Source: Planctomycetaceae bacterium
GTDB lineage: Bacteria > Planctomycetota > Planctomycetia > Planctomycetales > Planctomycetaceae
NCBI GenBank assembly: GCA_019636285.1
Contig: JAHBXV010000025.1
Span: 1 to 64,000, forward strand
DNA: 64,000 bases
Reading direction: 5' to 3'
The position numbers and the translations under genes are program-made. This document shows positions 703-10,310 of this stretch, piece after piece (within the stretch, counting starts at the first letter, position 1; each line of letters begins with the position of its first letter). The notes beneath the pieces are model-generated. The model was not told the origin of the DNA. It was given only the letters and a program-made list of their open reading frames with translations, and did no database searches.

Positions 703-1935
703 TCAGTCCATGATGAGCACGCGGTGCATTTCCTCGACCGTGGTCTGGCCCGCTAGCACTTTCTTCGCGGCCGACTGCTCGAGCGTGGCCATTCCCTGAC
801 TGGTCGCCATCGCCCGCAATTCGCTCGCCGATTTCCCGGCGAGAATCGCCTGACGAATGGAGGTGTCGACCGGCAGCACTTCGAAAACGCCGACCCTTCC
901 CAGATAGCCCGTGTGAAAATTGCAGTCGGCGGGAACTCCGCGCGACAGCGGATGCGTGTCCGCCTGGGCGGGGTCGATTCCGAGAACCCGGCACTCGGCT
1001 TCATCCGGTCGGTAGGTTTCGCGCGAGTGCTCGCAGACTTTCCGCATCAGGCGCTGCGCGATGATGCAATTGACGCTGTCCGCGATGAACATCGGCGGGA
1101 CTTCAAATTCCCGAAAGACATCGATCGTCGCCGCCGTATCGTTCGCGTGGAGCGTGCTGAGGACGCGAATCCCCGTCAGTCCGGCCCGAACCGCGATGTG
1201 GGCCGTTTCCGGATCGCGGATTTCTCCGACCATCACGACGTTGGGATCCTGCCGCAGAATTCCGCGCAGGGCCTCTACGAATGAAAAGCCGATTCGCGGA
1301 TCGATCTGGATCTGGGCAATGCCGTCGACGCGGCGTTCGACGGGGTCTTCGATCGTGACCAGGCTTCGTCCGGGATGATTGAGCAGCTCGAGGCAAGAGT
1401 ACATGGTCGTGCTCTTGCCGCTTCCCACCGGGCCGACACTCAAAACCATGCCATGCGGCCGCGCGAGCGATTTGCGGACGGCTTCCACCTCGGCGGGCTC
1501 GAGTCCCAGTTCATTGAGCTGCGAAAACTGACGGGAATCGGGCATCAGTCGCAGCACGATCCGCTCGCCATGAATTGTGGGACCGCTGCCGACGCGCACA
1601 TCGCGCTGATGGCGCAGCATGGCTCCGGTAATATGTCCGTCCTGTGCGAACCGGCGTTCGGTGATATCCATGCCCGACATCAGTTTGATGCGGCTGATGA
1701 CGGGCGAAGTCAGCTCGGCGGACAGCTCGAGAATGTCGTGCAGAATTCCATCCACGCGCAGCCGGACTCGCAAACCGGTCCGGGTCGGCTCGAAGTGAAT
1801 ATCGGTGGCCTGTAACTGAAACGCGCGTTCCAAAAGCAGGTCGACCAGCGGCGCGGGACCAACCACGTCGACCAGTTCGCGCAACTCTTCCTGCAAGGCT
1901 TTCTGGCGGGTTTCGGCGGGAACTCCAGAGCTCAT
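703..1935 (-). CDS. GspE/PilB/PilT-family secretion ATPase, stand-alone
   Basis: This 410-residue protein belongs to the type II secretion / type IV pilus ATPase family. Walker A is GPVGSGKST at about residues 168-176 and Walker B is VVMVGE at about 233-238, followed by the Asp and His box regions ([15 protein letters not shown]). The protein starts directly with the N2-like domain (ATDIHFEP), so it lacks the N-terminal MshEN/GSPII_E_N domain of full-length GspE. The C-terminal zinc-binding tetracysteine is degenerate: only one Cys of each CxxC pair is obvious (VCEH and DCNF), although [11 protein letters not shown] is retained. No pilin or secretin gene is nearby. It lies 83 bp downstream of the STAS-membrane gene on the same strand and may be co-transcribed with it. 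The family is certain; the exact role (pilus, secretion or regulatory) is open. Confidence 0.9.
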
Positions 1936-2855: not shown

Positions 2856-3252
2856 GGATTGGCCCGCCGACTAGTGGCCCGAAGTGACGGGTGGGAATGA
2901 GTAGAAACACGGTCTCGATACAATGAATCGACTGATGCCTCTGCCCATCGACACGTAGAGCCGGGAACCCGATCGTGGAAATGCGATTCTCCGCATCATC
3001 GGCCGGACCGTCAAAGACGGCAAGCCAGCGACAACCGGGAAATGCCGCGAAGTCGGCCAGTCGAGGGGGCGTCAAAACCGCTAATCCCTTGCCGTCCGTT
3101 GTTTGAGACGGAAGGAACTGATTGACACCCGTCTTTCGGCGGAGTTACGATTTCCGGATCGACGATAGTCTGACCAGGGATTGGTCGTTCCCGGCCAAGT
3201 GTGGGCGTCCGTTCCTGGCCCCGTTCTTTCCAGCGTCAGCGAATTCTGCGAC
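2856..3252. promoter_or_regulatory. divergent intergenic region upstream of the STAS and shape-block genes
   Basis: These 397 bp separate the minus-strand STAS gene from the plus-strand coiled-coil gene, so promoters for both should lie here. I see no convincing coding frame, RNA gene or strong hairpin, and I cannot assign -35/-10 boxes with confidence. Confidence 0.4.
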
Positions 3253-3945
3253 ATGAATAAAATCGCCAAACCGCTGGTGGTCTTCGTGGCGGCGGGCAGT
3301 CTCGCCTTCATGGCGTTTGCCATTGCCCTGACCGCCGGCGGCCCCGACTGGGATGTCATTTCCAAGTCGGAATCCTTCACGCGCGATTTCGTCCTCACCG
3401 TTTCGACGGGTGAGCAGACGACGTATGCGGTGCGCCATCGCCGGTCGGACCAGCAGGTGTCGTCGTCGCCGGTTCTCGCCGAAGTGGTTGTCGCCGCATT
3501 GCAGCGGCAGGCGCAGGATCTGCAAACTCAAGTCCAGCAGATTCAACAGGAAACCGAGCGAAAGGCGCCGCTGGTTCCCGAAATCACGCGGCTGAAAGAG
3601 CAGGATGAGAAAGCTCTCGCGGCTCGCTCGCAGGCGCTTGAGCAGGAGCTCACGAACCTTCGAACTCGCGAATCGCAGATGCTCGCCGCGCAGGCTGAAA
3701 AGGCCGCCGAGACCCAGTCCGTGATGCAGGTTGTCGTTGAGCGTCGCAACGAGGGGTTCCGCATGAAGAACCTCCTCGAACTGCTGCGGACCGATGCCTA
3801 CGTGGCCCAGGTTCAGAAGAAGGCTTTGGATGACGAATTGATTCGTCTGAAGGAAAATGTCCGGCGGCTGGAAAAGCGGAATCAGCAACTCAAAAAGACC
3901 ATTTCCACGACTTACGATCAGGACAAGGTTTCCAGTAATCCCTGA
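3253..3945 (+). CDS. membrane-anchored coiled-coil protein
   Basis: This 230-residue protein has one N-terminal membrane segment at about residues 5-28 (KPLVVFVAAGSLAFMAFAIA). A short soluble stretch follows, and then from about residue 80 a long coiled coil rich in Gln, Glu, Leu and Arg to the C-terminus. ATG at 3253 is preferred over upstream in-frame starts because it places the membrane anchor at the extreme N-terminus. It is the first gene of a plus-strand series (3253, 4031, 4866, 5269) leading into mreB. Its size and architecture parallel the next gene, so the two look like partners or distant paralogues. No enzymatic motif is present. A structural role in the envelope or elongation machinery is inferred from position only. 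Confidence 0.75.
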   Translation: MNKIAKPLVVFVAAGSLAFMAFAIALTAGGPDWDVISKSESFTRDFVLTVSTGEQTTYAVRHRRSDQQVSSSPVLAEVVVAALQRQAQDLQTQVQQIQQETERKAPLVPEITRLKEQDEKALAARSQALEQELTNLRTRESQMLAAQAEKAAETQSVMQVVVERRNEGFRMKNLLELLRTDAYVAQVQKKALDDELIRLKENVRRLEKRNQQLKKTISTTYDQDKVSSNP

Positions 3946-4030: not shown

Positions 4031-4885
4031 ATGACTTTTGTCGGCAAAATCCTTGTCGTGATGCACCTGCTCTTCAGCGTGCTCTTCATGGCATTCGCGG
4101 GGGCGGTCTTCACCGCGCAAAAGAACTGGCGGGCCGATTCCGAGGCCAAGGCCACGCAGTTGGCGAAGGCCCAGGCCGATCTGCGCGACGCGTCGACGCA
4201 GTTGCAGGATCTGCAGAACCAGAAGGCCGCCACCGAAGCCGACTTGAACAATAAAATCACGCAGCTTTCGGGCGAAGCGACCAGCCTGCGGAACGAAAAT
4301 CAGTCGCTGGACGCGGAAAACAAGCAGCTTCTGGCCTCGCTCGATGCCGTGCGAACCCAGTCGCAGCTCTCCGCCGACGAAGCGGGCGAGCGCGTGCAGG
4401 AAGCCCAGTTGCAGCGTGAGCGTAACGCTGAACTGCGAACCTCCCGCGATCAGCAGGTGGAACAGGTTCGTAGCCTGGCCGACGAAGTCTTCGGGCTCAA
4501 CCTGCGGCTGACGGCAACTCGGGAACGCTATGAGGCGCTCCTCCGCGACAACGCCACGATGCGGTCTTTCCTGGCCTCGAAGGGCCTGCCCACCGATCCC
4601 AAGCAGATGGTCGTGAACACTCAGCCCGCTGAACCGTTGGTCGCCGTGGTCCTGGCTATCAGCCCCGGTGAGCGCGGTGCTTCGGAAATGGTGGAGATTT
4701 CGGCGGGAACCGACGATGGCCTGGAGATTGGTCATCGGCTGACGCTGTTCCGCGGTTCCAAGTATCTCGGACAGATTGAACTGACTTACGTCACTCCGGA
4801 CCTGGCGGTCGGCAGTGTGATTCCGGACCTCAAGGCGAAGAACGCCGTCATTCAGAAGGGTGACAATGCCACCACGAAGTTCTGA
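4031..4885 (+). CDS. membrane-anchored coiled-coil protein with C-terminal beta domain
   Basis: This 284-residue protein begins at ATG 4031, preceded by AGGGA at 4021-4025. An N-terminal membrane segment spans about residues 5-28. A coiled coil runs from about 35 to 175, rich in Ala, Gln and Glu. A compact C-terminal domain from about 195 to 284 carries Gly-turn/beta patterns (VEISAGTDDGLEIGHRLTLF, KYLGQIEL) that resemble the small beta-barrel seen at the end of MreC- or FlgT-like proteins. That resemblance is a visual impression, not a database match. Its 3' end overlaps the start of the next small gene by 20 bp, implying translational coupling. Its place upstream of mreB suggests an envelope scaffolding function. 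Confidence 0.8.
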   Translation: MTFVGKILVVMHLLFSVLFMAFAGAVFTAQKNWRADSEAKATQLAKAQADLRDASTQLQDLQNQKAATEADLNNKITQLSGEATSLRNENQSLDAENKQLLASLDAVRTQSQLSADEAGERVQEAQLQRERNAELRTSRDQQVEQVRSLADEVFGLNLRLTATRERYEALLRDNATMRSFLASKGLPTDPKQMVVNTQPAEPLVAVVLAISPGERGASEMVEISAGTDDGLEIGHRLTLFRGSKYLGQIELTYVTPDLAVGSVIPDLKAKNAVIQKGDNATTKF

Positions 4886-5009
4886 GAGTGGCAATCCCAC
4901 TCCCGATGCCTATGTCGGCCTGCTGTTCGTGTCGCTCGCCGCGCTGTTGACCGGCATCATCTTCCTGTTCCTGGAGCTCTCCGACTACGGCTTTAAGATC
5001 GCTCCGTAG
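4866..5009 (+). CDS. 47-residue single-pass membrane peptide
   Basis: A short frame starts with ATG at 4866 inside the end of the preceding gene (20-bp overlap) and ends with TAG at 5007-5009. The product has a polar Pro/Ser-rich N-terminus of about 15 residues. One strongly hydrophobic helix follows (about residues 16-38, containing VGLLFVSLAALLTGIIFLFL), then a short tail ELSDYGFKIAP. The tight overlap, clean membrane-helix composition and location between shape-related genes argue that it is real. It is too short for many gene finders. It probably acts as a small membrane partner of the adjacent coiled-coil proteins; that role is an inference. Confidence 0.75.
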   Translation: MPPRSSESGNPTPDAYVGLLFVSLAALLTGIIFLFLELSDYGFKIAP

Positions 5010-5038: not shown

Positions 5039-5110
5039 GTGTCGCTGGCTTTGTCAGTGCAACCTGTTTAGACCGAGCCGTTTAGGGCGCACTGGCAAAG
5101 CCAGTGACAC
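5039..5110. repeat. inverted pair of CACTGGC-type hairpin repeats
   Basis: A 22-bp segment at 5039-5060 and another at 5089-5110 are inverted copies of each other with two mismatches. Each forms its own hairpin (the second has a 7-bp stem and AAA loop), and the pair can form a larger stem around 28 bp. The same CACTGGC/GCCAGTG core recurs at 39307 and 39436, so this is a dispersed family in the genome. Confidence 0.7.
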
Positions 5111-5268: not shown

Positions 5269-6318
5269 ATGTGGCATCGCTGGCGGTCCTGGTTGAACAC
5301 CGATTTGGCTGTCGATCTCGGCAGTTCAGCGGTCCGCATTGCCGTCCCCCGCGAAGGGGTCGTGCTGGACGAGCCGGCCGTGGTGGCCCTGCATCAGGGA
5401 ACTCGGCAGGTGCTGGGACGCGGCACAGCCGTGGGTCTCCTGGCTCGCCAGATGGTAGGGCGGACGCCCGATTCGATCAGTGCTCGCGCCCCCATCGAAC
5501 GGGGCGTGATCGCCGATTACGAACTGTGCGAAGCCATGCTTCGCTATTTCCTGAGGAAAACCGGACGTCTGGGGGCAATGGGACGTGCCCGGCTGGTGAT
5601 CCCGGTTCCGGGTCTGGCGACGGCAGTAGAACGGCGCGCGGTCTTTAACAGCATGGAGCGGGCCGGCGCGGGGCCGGTCTACCTGCTTCCCACGGCGAAA
5701 GCGGCCGCGATTGGTTGCGGCCTTCCCATTTCCGAACCCCTCGCCAGCCTGATCTGCCACATCGGAGCGGGATCGACCGAGATCGCCGTCTTCAGTCTTT
5801 CAGAGGTCGTGGCTTCCGAATCCCTGCGCTTCGGCGGACAGGACTTCGACACGGCCATCGTGGAACATCTGCGCGGCGTTCACTCGCTGAAAGTGGGCCT
5901 GGCGACTGCGGAACAGTTGAAGCTCCGAATCGGCTCGGCCTGGCCGCTGGATGCCGAATCGAGCGGCGAAGTCAGCGGACTGGACCTGCGCAGCGGCGTG
6001 CCGAGGAAGGGCCTCGTGACGACACGCGACGTGCAGGAGGCGTTTCGGCAGCCGCTCAATCTATTGTTGCGAGCAATCAAGCGGGTGATCGAACAGTGCC
6101 ATCCGGAGCTTGTCGGCGACCTGGCGGAAACGGGGCTGGTCCTTTCGGGCGGAGCCGCCTGTCTGACGGGGCTTGATCTGCTGCTCCAGGAGCAATTGGG
6201 GATTCCGGTGCGCCGGGCCGATCATCCCCGCCACGCCTCGATTCTGGGGGCCGCGATCTGCGCGGAACACCTGCGTCGTTTTCGTGACAGCCTGGAGAGC
6301 AGTGATCGCGCGGCTTAG
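5269..6318 (+). CDS. mreB: divergent MreB/actin-fold rod-shape protein
   Basis: With the start set at ATG 5269 the protein is 349 residues, the usual MreB length. Upstream in-frame codons run through the repeat region and are unlikely to be translated. Phosphate loop 1 is present as TDLAVDLGSS (about 11-20), and the C-terminal adenosine motif LSGGAACLTGL is clear. Two expected features are altered. The canonical LIEEPMAAAIG reads LLPTAKAAAIG here, so both Glu residues are lost. The phosphate-2 motif DIGGGTTE reads HIGAGSTE (His164), so the Asp is lost. By analogy with studied MreB proteins these residues support ATP hydrolysis and Mg binding, so this filament may bind nucleotide but hydrolyse poorly. 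It is followed by mreC after about 250 bp of repeats, then mreD and PBP2. Confidence 0.85.
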   Translation: MWHRWRSWLNTDLAVDLGSSAVRIAVPREGVVLDEPAVVALHQGTRQVLGRGTAVGLLARQMVGRTPDSISARAPIERGVIADYELCEAMLRYFLRKTGRLGAMGRARLVIPVPGLATAVERRAVFNSMERAGAGPVYLLPTAKAAAIGCGLPISEPLASLICHIGAGSTEIAVFSLSEVVASESLRFGGQDFDTAIVEHLRGVHSLKVGLATAEQLKLRIGSAWPLDAESSGEVSGLDLRSGVPRKGLVTTRDVQEAFRQPLNLLLRAIKRVIEQCHPELVGDLAETGLVLSGGAACLTGLDLLLQEQLGIPVRRADHPRHASILGAAICAEHLRRFRDSLESSDRAA

Positions 6319-6406: not shown

Positions 6407-6541
6407 GTAACCCGAAGCGTCAGCGAGGGCGGTCCGGTTCTCTCCCTCGCTGGCGCTACGGGTTACTAGATGATGTGGCTTGGCCGTGATGAATGAGGCG
6501 GAGCCTCGTTGGGGGGCGTTCCCAGGCGTAGCCTGGGAACG
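6407..6541. repeat. two inverted-repeat elements between mreB and mreC
   Basis: Arms at 6407-6429 and 6444-6466 are 23-bp inverted copies with two mismatches (core CCCTCGCTGGCGCTACGGG). A second, perfect 11-bp stem with a GTA loop lies at 6517-6541 (CGTTCCCAGGC / GCCTGGGAACG). Both look like dispersed intergenic hairpin families. They could attenuate read-through from mreB into mreC, though neither has a T-run. Confidence 0.7.
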
Positions 6542-6567: not shown

Positions 6568-7536
6568 GTGGGTCGGTCGTCCTGGATCGTCGAGTTCGCG
6601 TTGGTCGCAGCGGCAGCGAGTCTGTGCGCTGCCCCGTCGACCATGGTGACCAGACTCCGCGCGGCCGCGGTCGATCTGTTCCATCCGGGGGCGACGCTGG
6701 TTCAGGACGGATATCGCACGGTAGCAAACTGGATTGAAGCCCGAGAATCGAGCCGCGTGCAGGAGCTGGCCGCGCGCACGGCGGACCTTGAGGATCGCTT
6801 CAACGAAAGCGAGCGGCAGCGGCGGGCGCTGGAATCGCTCGTTGCGACGGCCGCCGAACGAATGTCTCTGCGTTATTTGCTGGCCCCCTCGGAACGGTCG
6901 CGCAACAACGAGCGATTGATCGACACGCAACTCGTCCGCGCCGCTGTTCTCGGGAAACCGCTCGCGGCGGGCTGGAAGTCGGGTCGGTTTCTGAAGTCGG
7001 GAAGTCAGGACGGACTGCGGGAATCGCTCGCGGTCGTGCGGGCCGAACTCCCGCTGATTGATCTGGGGGCGGACCACGGCCTGGAAGTCGAACAGCTCGC
7101 CGTGCTGGGGCGCACGATTGTCGGCGAGCTCGCGGAAGTCGGCCGGTGGAGCAGTGCCCTGCGGCTGGCGGATGATCCCGACTACCGGGCTCGCGGACAG
7201 CTCGCGCGGCAAACCGCGCAAGGACTGCAACTGGCGGCGGTGGGCATGGTGCATGGCGTCGGCGACGGCTGCTGCGAGTTACGCGGGGTCGATGCGACGG
7301 AGTTCGTCGAGGTGGGCGATCAGCTCTTCACGGCCGATCGCGACGGTGTCCTTCCGTTTCCGCTGTATTACGGGGAAGTGACCGAGGCTCACCTTGGGAG
7401 CGACGATCGGCACTGGAAGATCCGAGTCAAACTCGCGCCGCGTCCCGCTTGTCTCACTCAGGTCGACGTTCTTGTTCCGCGAGCCAATCCGGAACGCGAT
7501 CTCGCGCGAGTTTTCACTCAGGAGGCCACGCGATGA
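6568..7536 (+). CDS. mreC: MreC-like rod-shape-determining protein
   Basis: This 322-residue protein starts at GTG 6568, with GAAGG at 6556-6560 as ribosome-binding site. An N-terminal hydrophobic segment (about 5-22) is followed by a coiled coil at about residues 55-95. A beta-rich periplasmic domain follows with the MreC-like pattern (VRAAVLGKP, LGADHGLEVEQLAV, GELAEVGRWSSALRLADDP). MreC links cytoplasmic MreB filaments to the cell-wall elongation enzymes by binding PBP2 in the periplasm. Its stop overlaps the mreD start (ATGA at 7533-7536), the usual coupling in mre operons. The sequence is divergent, but order, topology and length support the call. Confidence 0.85.
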   Translation: MGRSSWIVEFALVAAAASLCAAPSTMVTRLRAAAVDLFHPGATLVQDGYRTVANWIEARESSRVQELAARTADLEDRFNESERQRRALESLVATAAERMSLRYLLAPSERSRNNERLIDTQLVRAAVLGKPLAAGWKSGRFLKSGSQDGLRESLAVVRAELPLIDLGADHGLEVEQLAVLGRTIVGELAEVGRWSSALRLADDPDYRARGQLARQTAQGLQLAAVGMVHGVGDGCCELRGVDATEFVEVGDQLFTADRDGVLPFPLYYGEVTEAHLGSDDRHWKIRVKLAPRPACLTQVDVLVPRANPERDLARVFTQEATR

Positions 7537-8054
7537 TGCGCTGTTGCTGGTTCCTGCTGTCGGTCTACGCGGCCGGGTCACTGCAGATCGGGATGCCGGA
7601 AGGATGGTTGATTGCCTGGTGGATCATTCCCGGGCTGCTCGCTCTGACGATGCTCCCGAAATCCTGGAAAGTGATCGGCACGTTTTCCGTCGGGTTCGCG
7701 GCCGATCTCATCAGCCAGGATCCCATGGGAATTCGGACCGTCGTCGCGACGGCCATCGCTTTGGCGATCGTCCACTTGGGAATGCTGCCGCGCCGCGGGA
7801 CTCTTCCCGGCGTCTCGGGATGGCTGGTCGCGATGTCGTGGCTGTGGATCGTACCGACCCGCTACGCGGTCGGAGCCTTGGCGGCTGAGCCGCTCGACGA
7901 TCGAGCGCTGCTCGTTGATGCTTCCATTTCTGCTCTCGCGACGGCCGGCGCGATGCTGGTCTGTTTCCTGATGTTGCGGCCGGTCATCAGGCTTCTGGGC
8001 CGCTGGGAGTCCCGTCCTTCGCTCACCAATCGCTGGTCGATGCTTGCCGAGTGA
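7533..8054 (+). CDS. mreD: MreD-like integral membrane protein
   Basis: This 173-residue, strongly hydrophobic protein has five to six predicted membrane helices, including LLSVYAAGSLQIG, WLIAWWIIPGLLALTML and AGAMLVCFLMLRPVIRLLG. The start at ATG 7533 overlaps the mreC stop in ATGA and has a GGAGG ribosome-binding site at 7521-7525. Its position between mreC and the PBP2 gene (3-bp gap to the next GTG) and its size match MreD, a membrane partner of the elongation complex. MreD sequences are poorly conserved, so topology and synteny carry most of the evidence. Confidence 0.8.
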   Translation: MMRCCWFLLSVYAAGSLQIGMPEGWLIAWWIIPGLLALTMLPKSWKVIGTFSVGFAADLISQDPMGIRTVVATAIALAIVHLGMLPRRGTLPGVSGWLVAMSWLWIVPTRYAVGALAAEPLDDRALLVDASISALATAGAMLVCFLMLRPVIRLLGRWESRPSLTNRWSMLAE

Positions 8055-8057
8055 CAC

Positions 8058-10310
8058 GTGCTCAATCGTCCGGGTGTATTCCTTGAACTGACGAACGGAA
8101 CCGGCGTTGGCCGCGGGACCGATGCGAATCCGTCCCTGCGGACCGGCTGGCTCTCGGCGTGTGTTCTAATTCCTCTTGTCGTGATCGCGGCGCGGGCCGC
8201 TTACTTGCAGTGCGCGATTGCCGATCGATTTCTCGTGGCGTTCACCTCGACCACCGAAGAATGGGAAGTCATCCCCGTCCGCGATGGCCGTATTCTCGCC
8301 GCGGATGGTTCGATCCTGGCGGGAGAAACCGAGCGGAATGAACTTCGCGTCCACTATCGCTGGTTGCAGGATCCCCCCGACGCAGAGTGGCTGAAGCGCC
8401 AAGCATGGCGGCGGCTGACGCGCGCTGAACGCCGCGATGACGAACTGGTTGCGATAGCCAAAGCCGAGGTGCTCAAGCAACACACACAATTGTGGCGCGA
8501 CCTTGAACGCCTCACGCGGCAATCGTCGGCCGATCTGTTGGCGCGTCGGCATGAAATTCAGCAGCGCGTCGAAGCGCTGGCCCAGCGCGTGAATCAGTCG
8601 GCCGCGAATCGACGAGTTCGGAATGCGGAAGGCGCGGACGACGGCCCAGCGGTCGAAAGCCCATTCTGGCGTCTGACGGGGGCAATCTGGGAAGAACTGA
8701 GAACGCCGCCGGAACGTCCGCGCGAGGAGCCGTTCGAAATCCTGGAACAGACCCAGTATCACGCCGTCATCGACAATCTCTCGCCCGAGTTGGCCACGGA
8801 GCTTGAGGCCGATCAAGGCCGATACCCCGGCGTTCGCGTCGCCGTCGAGTGGAAGCGAACGTATCCGCAGAACGACCTGGGAGCGCACTGGATCGGCACG
8901 CGCAAGCTGACGGTTGTCGATGAAAGCTCGGCTGAGAAAATCGCAAAGCATCCGGACCACATCGCGAACCAGACCACCGGGATCAGTGGTCTGGAACGCC
9001 AGTACAACGAGCATCTGAGCGGCGTTCGGGGTCTCAAGCGTCTCGTGCGGAACCGTCGAGGCGACGTCCTTCGTGAAGAAGTGCTCCGCGAACCGCGGCC
9101 GGGACGCGATCTCGTGCTGACCATTGATGCCGACCTGCAACGATTCGCCGAACGGCGGCTGGATATCGCTCTCAGCGGAGTTCCCGCCGGCGAAACGGAC
9201 AGCGAGGAATCAGCCTCGGTCGACGAGGCGGCGCGCGCACCGGTGGCACCTCCCCTGGGGGGAGTGCTCGCGGCGATCGACGTACGAACCGGGGCAATTC
9301 TGACGCTGGCCGCTTCACCCCGATACAACGCGAACCTCCTGTTGCGAGCCGAGGCGGCTGAATGGCAGGCGCTGCTTGACGATCCTCGTCGCCCGCTGTT
9401 TCCACGGACCACACAGATGGCGTTGCCGCCGGGCTCGGTCTTCAAGGCGATCTCTGCCATCGCCTGCACGCAAACGGGCGAACTCGATCCCAGCCGGGCC
9501 ATCTATTGCCAGGGGTTTCTCGACCGGCCGGAAGCCCATCGCTGCATGATCTTTCGCCACCATGGAATTGGCCACGGCGAAATGACGCTCGCGGAGGCGC
9601 TCGAACAATCGTGCAACGTCTACTTCTTTCAGGCGGCTCGCAAGGCGGGGCCGCGGCCGCTGGTTGAATGGGCCGATCGTCTGGGTGTTGGTCGTCCAAC
9701 CGGTGTCGATCTTCCCGATGAGGCGGGCGGAAACCTTCCGCGACCGGAGACCAGCCGTCATCGCTGGCACACGGCAGACACGCTGGGGCTGGCGATCGGC
9801 CAATCGACCGTGCTGGTCACGCCGCTGCAGATGGCGCGGGTGATGGCGGCCATTGCCAACGAGGGTTCGCTGGTGACGCCTCACTTCGCCTCGCAGCATG
9901 GTCCCCGGTATCTCGCGGACGACTTGGCCGAACCAACATCCGTGACAGGAGCCCCCGAGTTACGGCCGATTTCCGACCTGGACCGCGCGACACTGGCAGT
10001 GGTTCGCAAAGGATTGGAAGCCGTGGTGAACGATCCTCGCGGAACCGCTTATCGCACCGTGAGGCTGGACGAAAGCCGCATCGCGGGCAAGACGGGAACC
10101 GCCGAAGTCGCTGGGAAGCCGGACCATGCGTGGTTCGCGGGCTACGTCCCCGCCGACAGGCCCCGCATTGCCTTCTGCGTCGTATTGGAGCATGGTGGCA
10201 GCGGCAGCAAAGCCGCCGGCCCGGTCGCCCGCGACTATGTGATGCAGCTCGTCCGCACGGGCCTGATTCCGTCCGAAAGCCGTCTGGTTCAGCGTTCAGT
10301 GGCCGATTGA
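8058..10310 (+). CDS. mrdA: class B penicillin-binding protein 2 (peptidoglycan transpeptidase)
   Basis: This 750-residue protein starts at GTG 8058, three bases after the mreD stop. A membrane anchor lies at about residues 30-48. The transpeptidase domain has all three motifs: SxxK as PPGSVFKAI (Ser near 460), SxN as SCN near 520, and KTGTAE near 678. PBP2 cross-links peptidoglycan during elongation together with RodA and MreBCD. The protein is longer than typical PBP2 (about 630). A charged, probably coiled-coil insertion spans about residues 110-230 between the anchor-proximal part and the dimerisation domain, and an acidic insertion lies near 380-395. No rodA follows; the next gene is convergent. 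Confidence 0.93.
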   Translation: MLNRPGVFLELTNGTGVGRGTDANPSLRTGWLSACVLIPLVVIAARAAYLQCAIADRFLVAFTSTTEEWEVIPVRDGRILAADGSILAGETERNELRVHYRWLQDPPDAEWLKRQAWRRLTRAERRDDELVAIAKAEVLKQHTQLWRDLERLTRQSSADLLARRHEIQQRVEALAQRVNQSAANRRVRNAEGADDGPAVESPFWRLTGAIWEELRTPPERPREEPFEILEQTQYHAVIDNLSPELATELEADQGRYPGVRVAVEWKRTYPQNDLGAHWIGTRKLTVVDESSAEKIAKHPDHIANQTTGISGLERQYNEHLSGVRGLKRLVRNRRGDVLREEVLREPRPGRDLVLTIDADLQRFAERRLDIALSGVPAGETDSEESASVDEAARAPVAPPLGGVLAAIDVRTGAILTLAASPRYNANLLLRAEAAEWQALLDDPRRPLFPRTTQMALPPGSVFKAISAIACTQTGELDPSRAIYCQGFLDRPEAHRCMIFRHHGIGHGEMTLAEALEQSCNVYFFQAARKAGPRPLVEWADRLGVGRPTGVDLPDEAGGNLPRPETSRHRWHTADTLGLAIGQSTVLVTPLQMARVMAAIANEGSLVTPHFASQHGPRYLADDLAEPTSVTGAPELRPISDLDRATLAVVRKGLEAVVNDPRGTAYRTVRLDESRIAGKTGTAEVAGKPDHAWFAGYVPADRPRIAFCVVLEHGGSGSKAAGPVARDYVMQLVRTGLIPSESRLVQRSVAD

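Follow-up and report, generated by a model that had tools for sequence, protein, structure and literature searches.

A sole MreB without the catalytic glutamate in a planctomycete, and repeated change of this residue within its family

The mreB locus

The window, as we call the whole stretch of 64,000 nucleotides analysed, carries an intact mreBCD-pbp2 unit (Table 1), in agreement with the mre block recognised in the original prediction. MreC and PBP2 are identified by profile matches and MreD by its position and membrane character, the MreD-like protein having returned no family match in the profile libraries searched. In PBP2, the SxxK, SxN and KTG motifs are all intact (SVFK, SCN and KTG), and the mreB frame contains neither a frameshift nor an internal stop.

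The host genome (6.37 Mb, 99.8% complete, 113 contigs) was searched for a second, canonical MreB, and none was found; the loss of hydrolysis residues described below therefore affects its sole MreB. The next-best matches, at 22 - 58 bits in open frames of 519 - 1015 residues, are presumably what HSP70/FtsA-type relatives would give. FtsZ was looked for in the same genome and is absent; FtsW/RodA proteins number two.

The small single-transmembrane protein encoded upstream of mreB (MPPRSSESGNPTPDAYVGLLFVSLAALLTGIIFLFLELSDYGFKIAP) is a candidate MreB partner, with 37 matches near mreB genes of the family, duplicate loci among them. In families f5, f13 and f14 of the class, too, the neighbouring coiled-coil gene is found close to mreB. 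The two imperfect palindromes that flank mreB are possibly mobile REP-like elements.

Table 1. Features of the mreB region, with positions in the window
Feature	Position	Strand	Remarks
PilT/GspE-like ATPase	703..1935	-	Syntenic with mreB in several divergent relatives
Further coiled-coil protein	3181..3945	+	Syntenic with mreB in several divergent relatives
Coiled-coil protein	4031..4885	+	Synteny with mreB extends to other families of the class
Small single-transmembrane protein	4866..5009	+	47 aa; directly 5' of mreB; conserved in the family
Imperfect palindrome	5039..5110		27-nt arms
mreB	5269..6318	+	ORF of 349 aa; relatives have a similar N-terminal M-[LF]-H-x-[IL]-R-x-W helix
Phosphate-1 loop VDLGSS	5311..5328	+	Asp16 retained; without variation in the family sequences read
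Arg at the Asp78 position	5500..5502	+	From sequence alignment; role of the site from PMC9195046
Pro-Thr in place of Glu142-Glu143	5689..5694	+	Codon ACG (Thr) at the catalytic position
Phosphate-2 motif CHIGAGSTE	5755..5781	+	His at Asp165, Ser at Thr170, Glu172 kept
Imperfect palindrome	6407..6466		23-nt arms
mreC	6568..7536	+	Pfam PF04085, 53 bits
mreD-like membrane protein	7533..8054	+	By position and hydrophobic sequence; ATGA overlap with mreC
pbp2 (mrdA-like)	8058..10310	+	TIGR03423, 400 bits; Pfam transpeptidase, 199 bits
Protein of 1711 aa	10352..15487	-	Ser/Thr kinase-like N-terminal part; numerous WD40-like repeats

Identity and predicted fold

The window encodes a true MreB. The protein matches Pfam MreB_Mbl (PF06723) with 328 bits (E 5.8e-98, profile positions 2 - 324 of 327) and PRK13927 with 326 bits, above its cut-off of 293; the 309 bits obtained with TIGR00904 lie below the curated cut-off of 365.75. 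Its top solved relative is Caulobacter MreB (CcMreB, PDB 4czf, E 1.9e-75). The AlphaFold model (pLDDT 92.3, pTM 0.89) was compared with known folds, yielding Z 43 - 45 at 1.4 - 1.6 Å for T. maritima and Caulobacter MreB and Z 37 for Spiroplasma MreB3. Full-length family profile and actin fold are thus accompanied by the phosphate-1 Asp16, the phosphate-2 Gly167 and a neighbourhood of mreC, mreD (by position only) and pbp2. The E...T-x-[DE] hydrolysis motif departs from the family pattern and reads Thr...Ser-x-Glu here. This motif is present in 95.8% of non-Spiroplasma MreBs (PMC9597168), but is typical of MreB rather than definitional, as the motif-less Spiroplasma MreB3 is still filed as MreB.

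Fold, phosphate-1 Asp, inter-protofilament Val, amphipathic N-terminus (MWHRWRSWL) and mreBCD-pbp2 operon are all shared with Caulobacter (PDB 4cze-4czm) and E. coli MreB, the identity to CcMreB being 42 - 44%. Unlike these proteins, the window MreB has neither the catalytic Glu nor the Mg-shell Asp nor Asp78. The kept Val121 and Asp285, together with the N-terminal helix, are consistent with antiparallel double filaments on the membrane; in E. coli MreB, the exchange V121E abolishes protofilament pairing and function (PMC4051119).

Active-site residues

Residues are numbered after E. coli MreB unless a window residue is stated; the letters of the reference used for this numbering match the alignment of solved MreBs. 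The window protein aligns to 4czf without gaps in both critical stretches (gpvyLLPTAKAAAIG / arrvgLIDEPMAAAIG and ICHIGAGSTE / VVDIGGGTTE). The catalytic Glu143 is replaced by Thr (window residue 142; CcMreB E140) and the Mg-coordinating Asp165 by His (window residue 164; ScMreB5 Asp156), so that neither site holds a Glu or Asp. As the region is free of gaps, the letters and the by-eye placement of the original prediction are correct. It had treated both Glu residues of the motif as important: the second is indeed the catalytic one (CcMreB E140; PMC4051119), whereas the first is variable and non-catalytic: many MreBs with Glu143 intact carry S, L, D, K, Q, P, A, N or T there. This variability and the gapless alignment also rule out a shift that would place Glu142 at the catalytic site.

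Two further changes had been overlooked, Asp78 to Arg (ScMreB5 Asp70; actin His73) and Thr170 to Ser (CcMreB T167), while Glu172 (CcMreB E169) and Asp16 are retained. In ScMreB5, the Spiroplasma MreB5 in which Asp156 holds the Mg water shell, kobs falls from 0.15/min to 0.01 in E134A, 0.08 in D156A and 0.05 in D70A; filaments are still made by E134A, though they are laterally less well organised (PMC9195046). In S. eriocheiris MreB3 and MreB5, separate roles are assigned to the Thr-x-Asp/Glu pair and to the Glu (PMC9597168). The replacement of Asp165 by His could itself weaken Mg-nucleotide binding, and Ser170 with Glu172 might sustain residual hydrolysis. Thus, the claim that the residues for ATP hydrolysis are lost holds for Glu143 and Asp165; with Glu172 and the hydroxyl of Ser170 remaining, 'strongly reduced' is the better description of the site.

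Distribution and repeated change of Glu143

MreB was found in 62 of 198 genomes of the class, 51 of them belonging to the host's family, and outside this family in 11 of about 147. The 101 family genomes first sampled never hold more than one copy; MreC was found in 97 and RodA/FtsW in all 101 of them, and among the 20 family loci with the lowest scores, mreC adjoins mreB in 19. Members of the window organism's genus, or other closer relatives, were not found among 170 family genomes, and the nearest entries in a named genome collection are four relatives at 57 - 60%.

For residue counts, 127 MreB sequences of the family were aligned. Of these, 83 have Glu143 and 44 a substitute, namely Lys (21), Asp (9), Ser (5), Gln (3), Ala (2), Val (2), Thr (1) or His (1); residues other than Glu, Gln or Asp are found there in 16 of 58 genera. 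Sixteen sequences lack Asp165, and 12 of these lack Glu143 as well. Position 170 is Thr in 124 and Ser in 2, and position 172 Glu in 95 and Asp in 30. Asp16 (126 of 126 readable sequences), Gly167, Val121 and Asp285 are never replaced. Elsewhere in the phylum, Glu143 is retained in 60 and Asp165 in all of 69 MreBs, a set in which 30 were picked as low-scoring and 30 as best-scoring and which serves as a contrast, not as a random sample. The alignment with planctomycete MreBs proposed at the outset thus shows that the replacements are not due to chance. Gln is the usual substitute there (7 of the 30 low-scoring MreBs). Gln is also the residue of actin at this position.

Ten MreBs from other families of the class were read: Glu143 is present in four, families f9, f13 and f14 retaining both Glu143 and Asp165, and Arg, Leu or Lys occupies the position in six (f5, f6 and f7). 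Four f5 relatives (L164, L166, L168 and L170) are still further degenerate, with Arg143, Glu165 and a broken phosphate-2 motif, and neither mreC nor pbp2 was detected within 5 kb of their mreB genes.

A maximum-likelihood tree of MreBs was built without the columns under study. On this quick tree, which has some long branches, the label Glu143 kept or lost requires 10 changes, at least 8 of them forced by well-supported branches; a stricter label (not Glu, Gln or Asp) likewise requires 10, with at least 7 forced by supported branches, changes being counted in either direction, as losses or gains. While their exact number is unsure, their plurality is certain. Raw counts also associate the loss of Glu143 with that of Asp78 (Fisher p 5e-11) and Asp165 (p 5e-4), but only 8 independent pairs are available and significance is gone once phylogeny is taken into account; we therefore claim no such correlation.

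Selection on the altered genes

For close pairs of relatives without Glu143, dN/dS is 0.020 - 0.088 (median 0.052, 13 pairs), as against 0.005 - 0.060 (median 0.021, 19 pairs) for pairs with Glu143, and a second method likewise gave values far below 1; individual values are rough, synonymous change being near saturation in some pairs. The Glu143-less genes of the relatives are thus under strong purifying selection that is relaxed about 2.5-fold (Mann-Whitney p 0.002). Tree paths are also longer where Glu143 was lost, which together with the raised dN/dS is a sign of relaxed constraint.

These pairs cover relatives, the branch of the window MreB being about 0.8 changes per site long and without a close relative. 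The window MreB itself retains 80 of 96 sites conserved in the phylum and in Glu143-bearing family members, and its retention is 81% at the most conserved sites vs 33% at weakly conserved ones, which points to selection rather than drift. A pseudogene is ruled out by dN/dS in the relatives and by the open frame and conserved-site retention in the window. The release from constraint is specific as to site. For 100 positions that are invariant in E. coli and outside the class, the median replacement frequency within the family is 3%; Glu143 reaches 35%, whereas Asp16, Gly167, Val121 and Asp285 stay untouched. About a dozen other positions of the 100 change at least as often as Glu143, which is therefore one of a set.

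A probable slowly hydrolysing scaffold and its alternatives

In our judgement, the window MreB is probably a single-copy, nucleotide-binding and slowly hydrolysing protein forming a long-lived membrane scaffold, with hydrolysis largely given up. It would fold, bind nucleotide via Asp16, pair into antiparallel protofilaments and sit on the membrane, the hydrolytic step being largely abandoned through the changes Glu143 to Thr, Asp165 to His and Asp78 to Arg. With these three positions altered and Ser-x-Glu kept, binding and polymerisation with slow hydrolysis are to be expected. Because MreB polymerisation follows nucleotide binding, and in S. eriocheiris MreB3 and MreB5 is driven by binding and not by hydrolysis (PMC9597168), the resulting filaments would be long-lived and turn over slowly; as the operon suggests, they may support the MreCD-PBP2-RodA wall-building complex as a static scaffold. 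The slow-cycling scaffold imagined in the original prediction would, as far as sequence can tell, fit the kept Asp16, the filament interfaces, the amphipathic N-terminus and the purifying selection in relatives.

Two precedents come close. The nearest, Spiroplasma MreB3 (PDB 7e1g), is a natural MreB without the E...T-x-[DE] motif, which polymerises into static filaments and releases Pi slowly (PMC9597168). With Asp147, Lys174 and Ser176 it has also lost the T-x-E half of the motif, whereas the window MreB keeps Ser-x-Glu; where the MreB3 type has Asp/Lys at E140/T167 and Ser/Thr at E169, the window has Thr, Ser and Glu. Moreover, MreB3 shares its wall-less, swimming cell with four paralogues, while the window MreB is the sole one, beside MreC, an MreD-like protein and PBP2. 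The window MreB may therefore act like MreB3, yet does not belong to its type. The ATPase-deficient mutants E134A and D156A of ScMreB5 are altered at two positions that are both changed in the window MreB; they are laboratory-made, whereas the changes here are natural, combined and recurrent across genera.

The main rival, which we consider unlikely but by no means negligible, is a relaxed remnant: MreB would be disappearing from the class, the elongasome dispensable, hydrolysis the first property lost, and the protein would do little. Most families of the class lack MreB, Planctopirus limnophila is viable without mreB, rodA or pbp2 (PMC6952346, PMC10632474), and the relaxed constraint and the f5 relatives point the same way. 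Against this stand dN/dS values that never exceed 0.088, intact frames, the near-constant presence of mreC, the invariance of Asp16, Val121, Gly167 and Asp285, and the maintenance of the altered site across species in several genera; the purifying selection speaks for a protein that is still of importance to the family.

Less probable again is hydrolysis at a useful rate via a rearranged site, in which Ser170-x-Glu172 activates the water and Thr142 and His164, or water-mediated contacts, replace the carboxylates. Nearly all family members do have Thr/Ser170 and Asp/Glu172, Pi release by MreB3 rose once the Thr-x-Asp/Glu pair was restored (PMC9597168), and Gln at position 143 is found in actin and elsewhere in the phylum. 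However, E134A by itself makes ScMreB5 about 15 times less active (PMC9195046), water is unlikely to be positioned by Thr, Lys, Ser, Ala or Val as it is by Glu or Gln, and the window MreB carries three further changes. An artefact of assembly, frameshift or alignment, for which the 113 contigs of the host assembly might speak, is practically excluded and for the family already refuted, since independent programs align the protein gaplessly, the predicted fold is of high confidence and like changes occur in dozens of genomes, single-contig ones (G007, G013, G032 and G047) included.

The supposed tie to division without FtsZ is not supported: relatives with canonical MreB are abundant though all Planctomycetes lack ftsZ (PMC10632474), and deletion of mreB in P. 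limnophila leaves budding, shape and growth without phenotype (PMC6952346). That organism resembles the host as a planctomycete with an mreBCD unit and no FtsZ.

What is new here is a sole MreB, encoded with a wall-synthesis operon, that lacks the catalytic Glu, and the recurrence of this state within a family; we found no earlier report of a Glu143-less sole MreB in planctomycetes, in a search falling short of most subscription journals. More tentatively than for the window protein itself, we suggest that the sole functional MreB of a walled family has repeatedly and independently shed hydrolysis, keeping binding, interfaces and elongasome operon, so that a filament without hydrolysis can serve wall synthesis. 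Lys143, which recurs, may even be a selected lock on the ATP state.

In model rods, MreCD-PBP2-RodA draws its movement from the synthesis of wall, not from the MreB ATPase. Since nucleotide binding suffices for polymerisation and it is wall synthesis that moves the filaments, the question arises whether MreB needs ATP hydrolysis for its task, and the family may be nature's own experiment on it: Glu143 has changed many times beside close relatives that bear it, even within a genus. In this genus (g5), two members have Lys (L061 and L200) and four Glu (L068, L069, L201 and L202), and the codons at position 143 are AAA or AAG for Lys and GAA for Glu.
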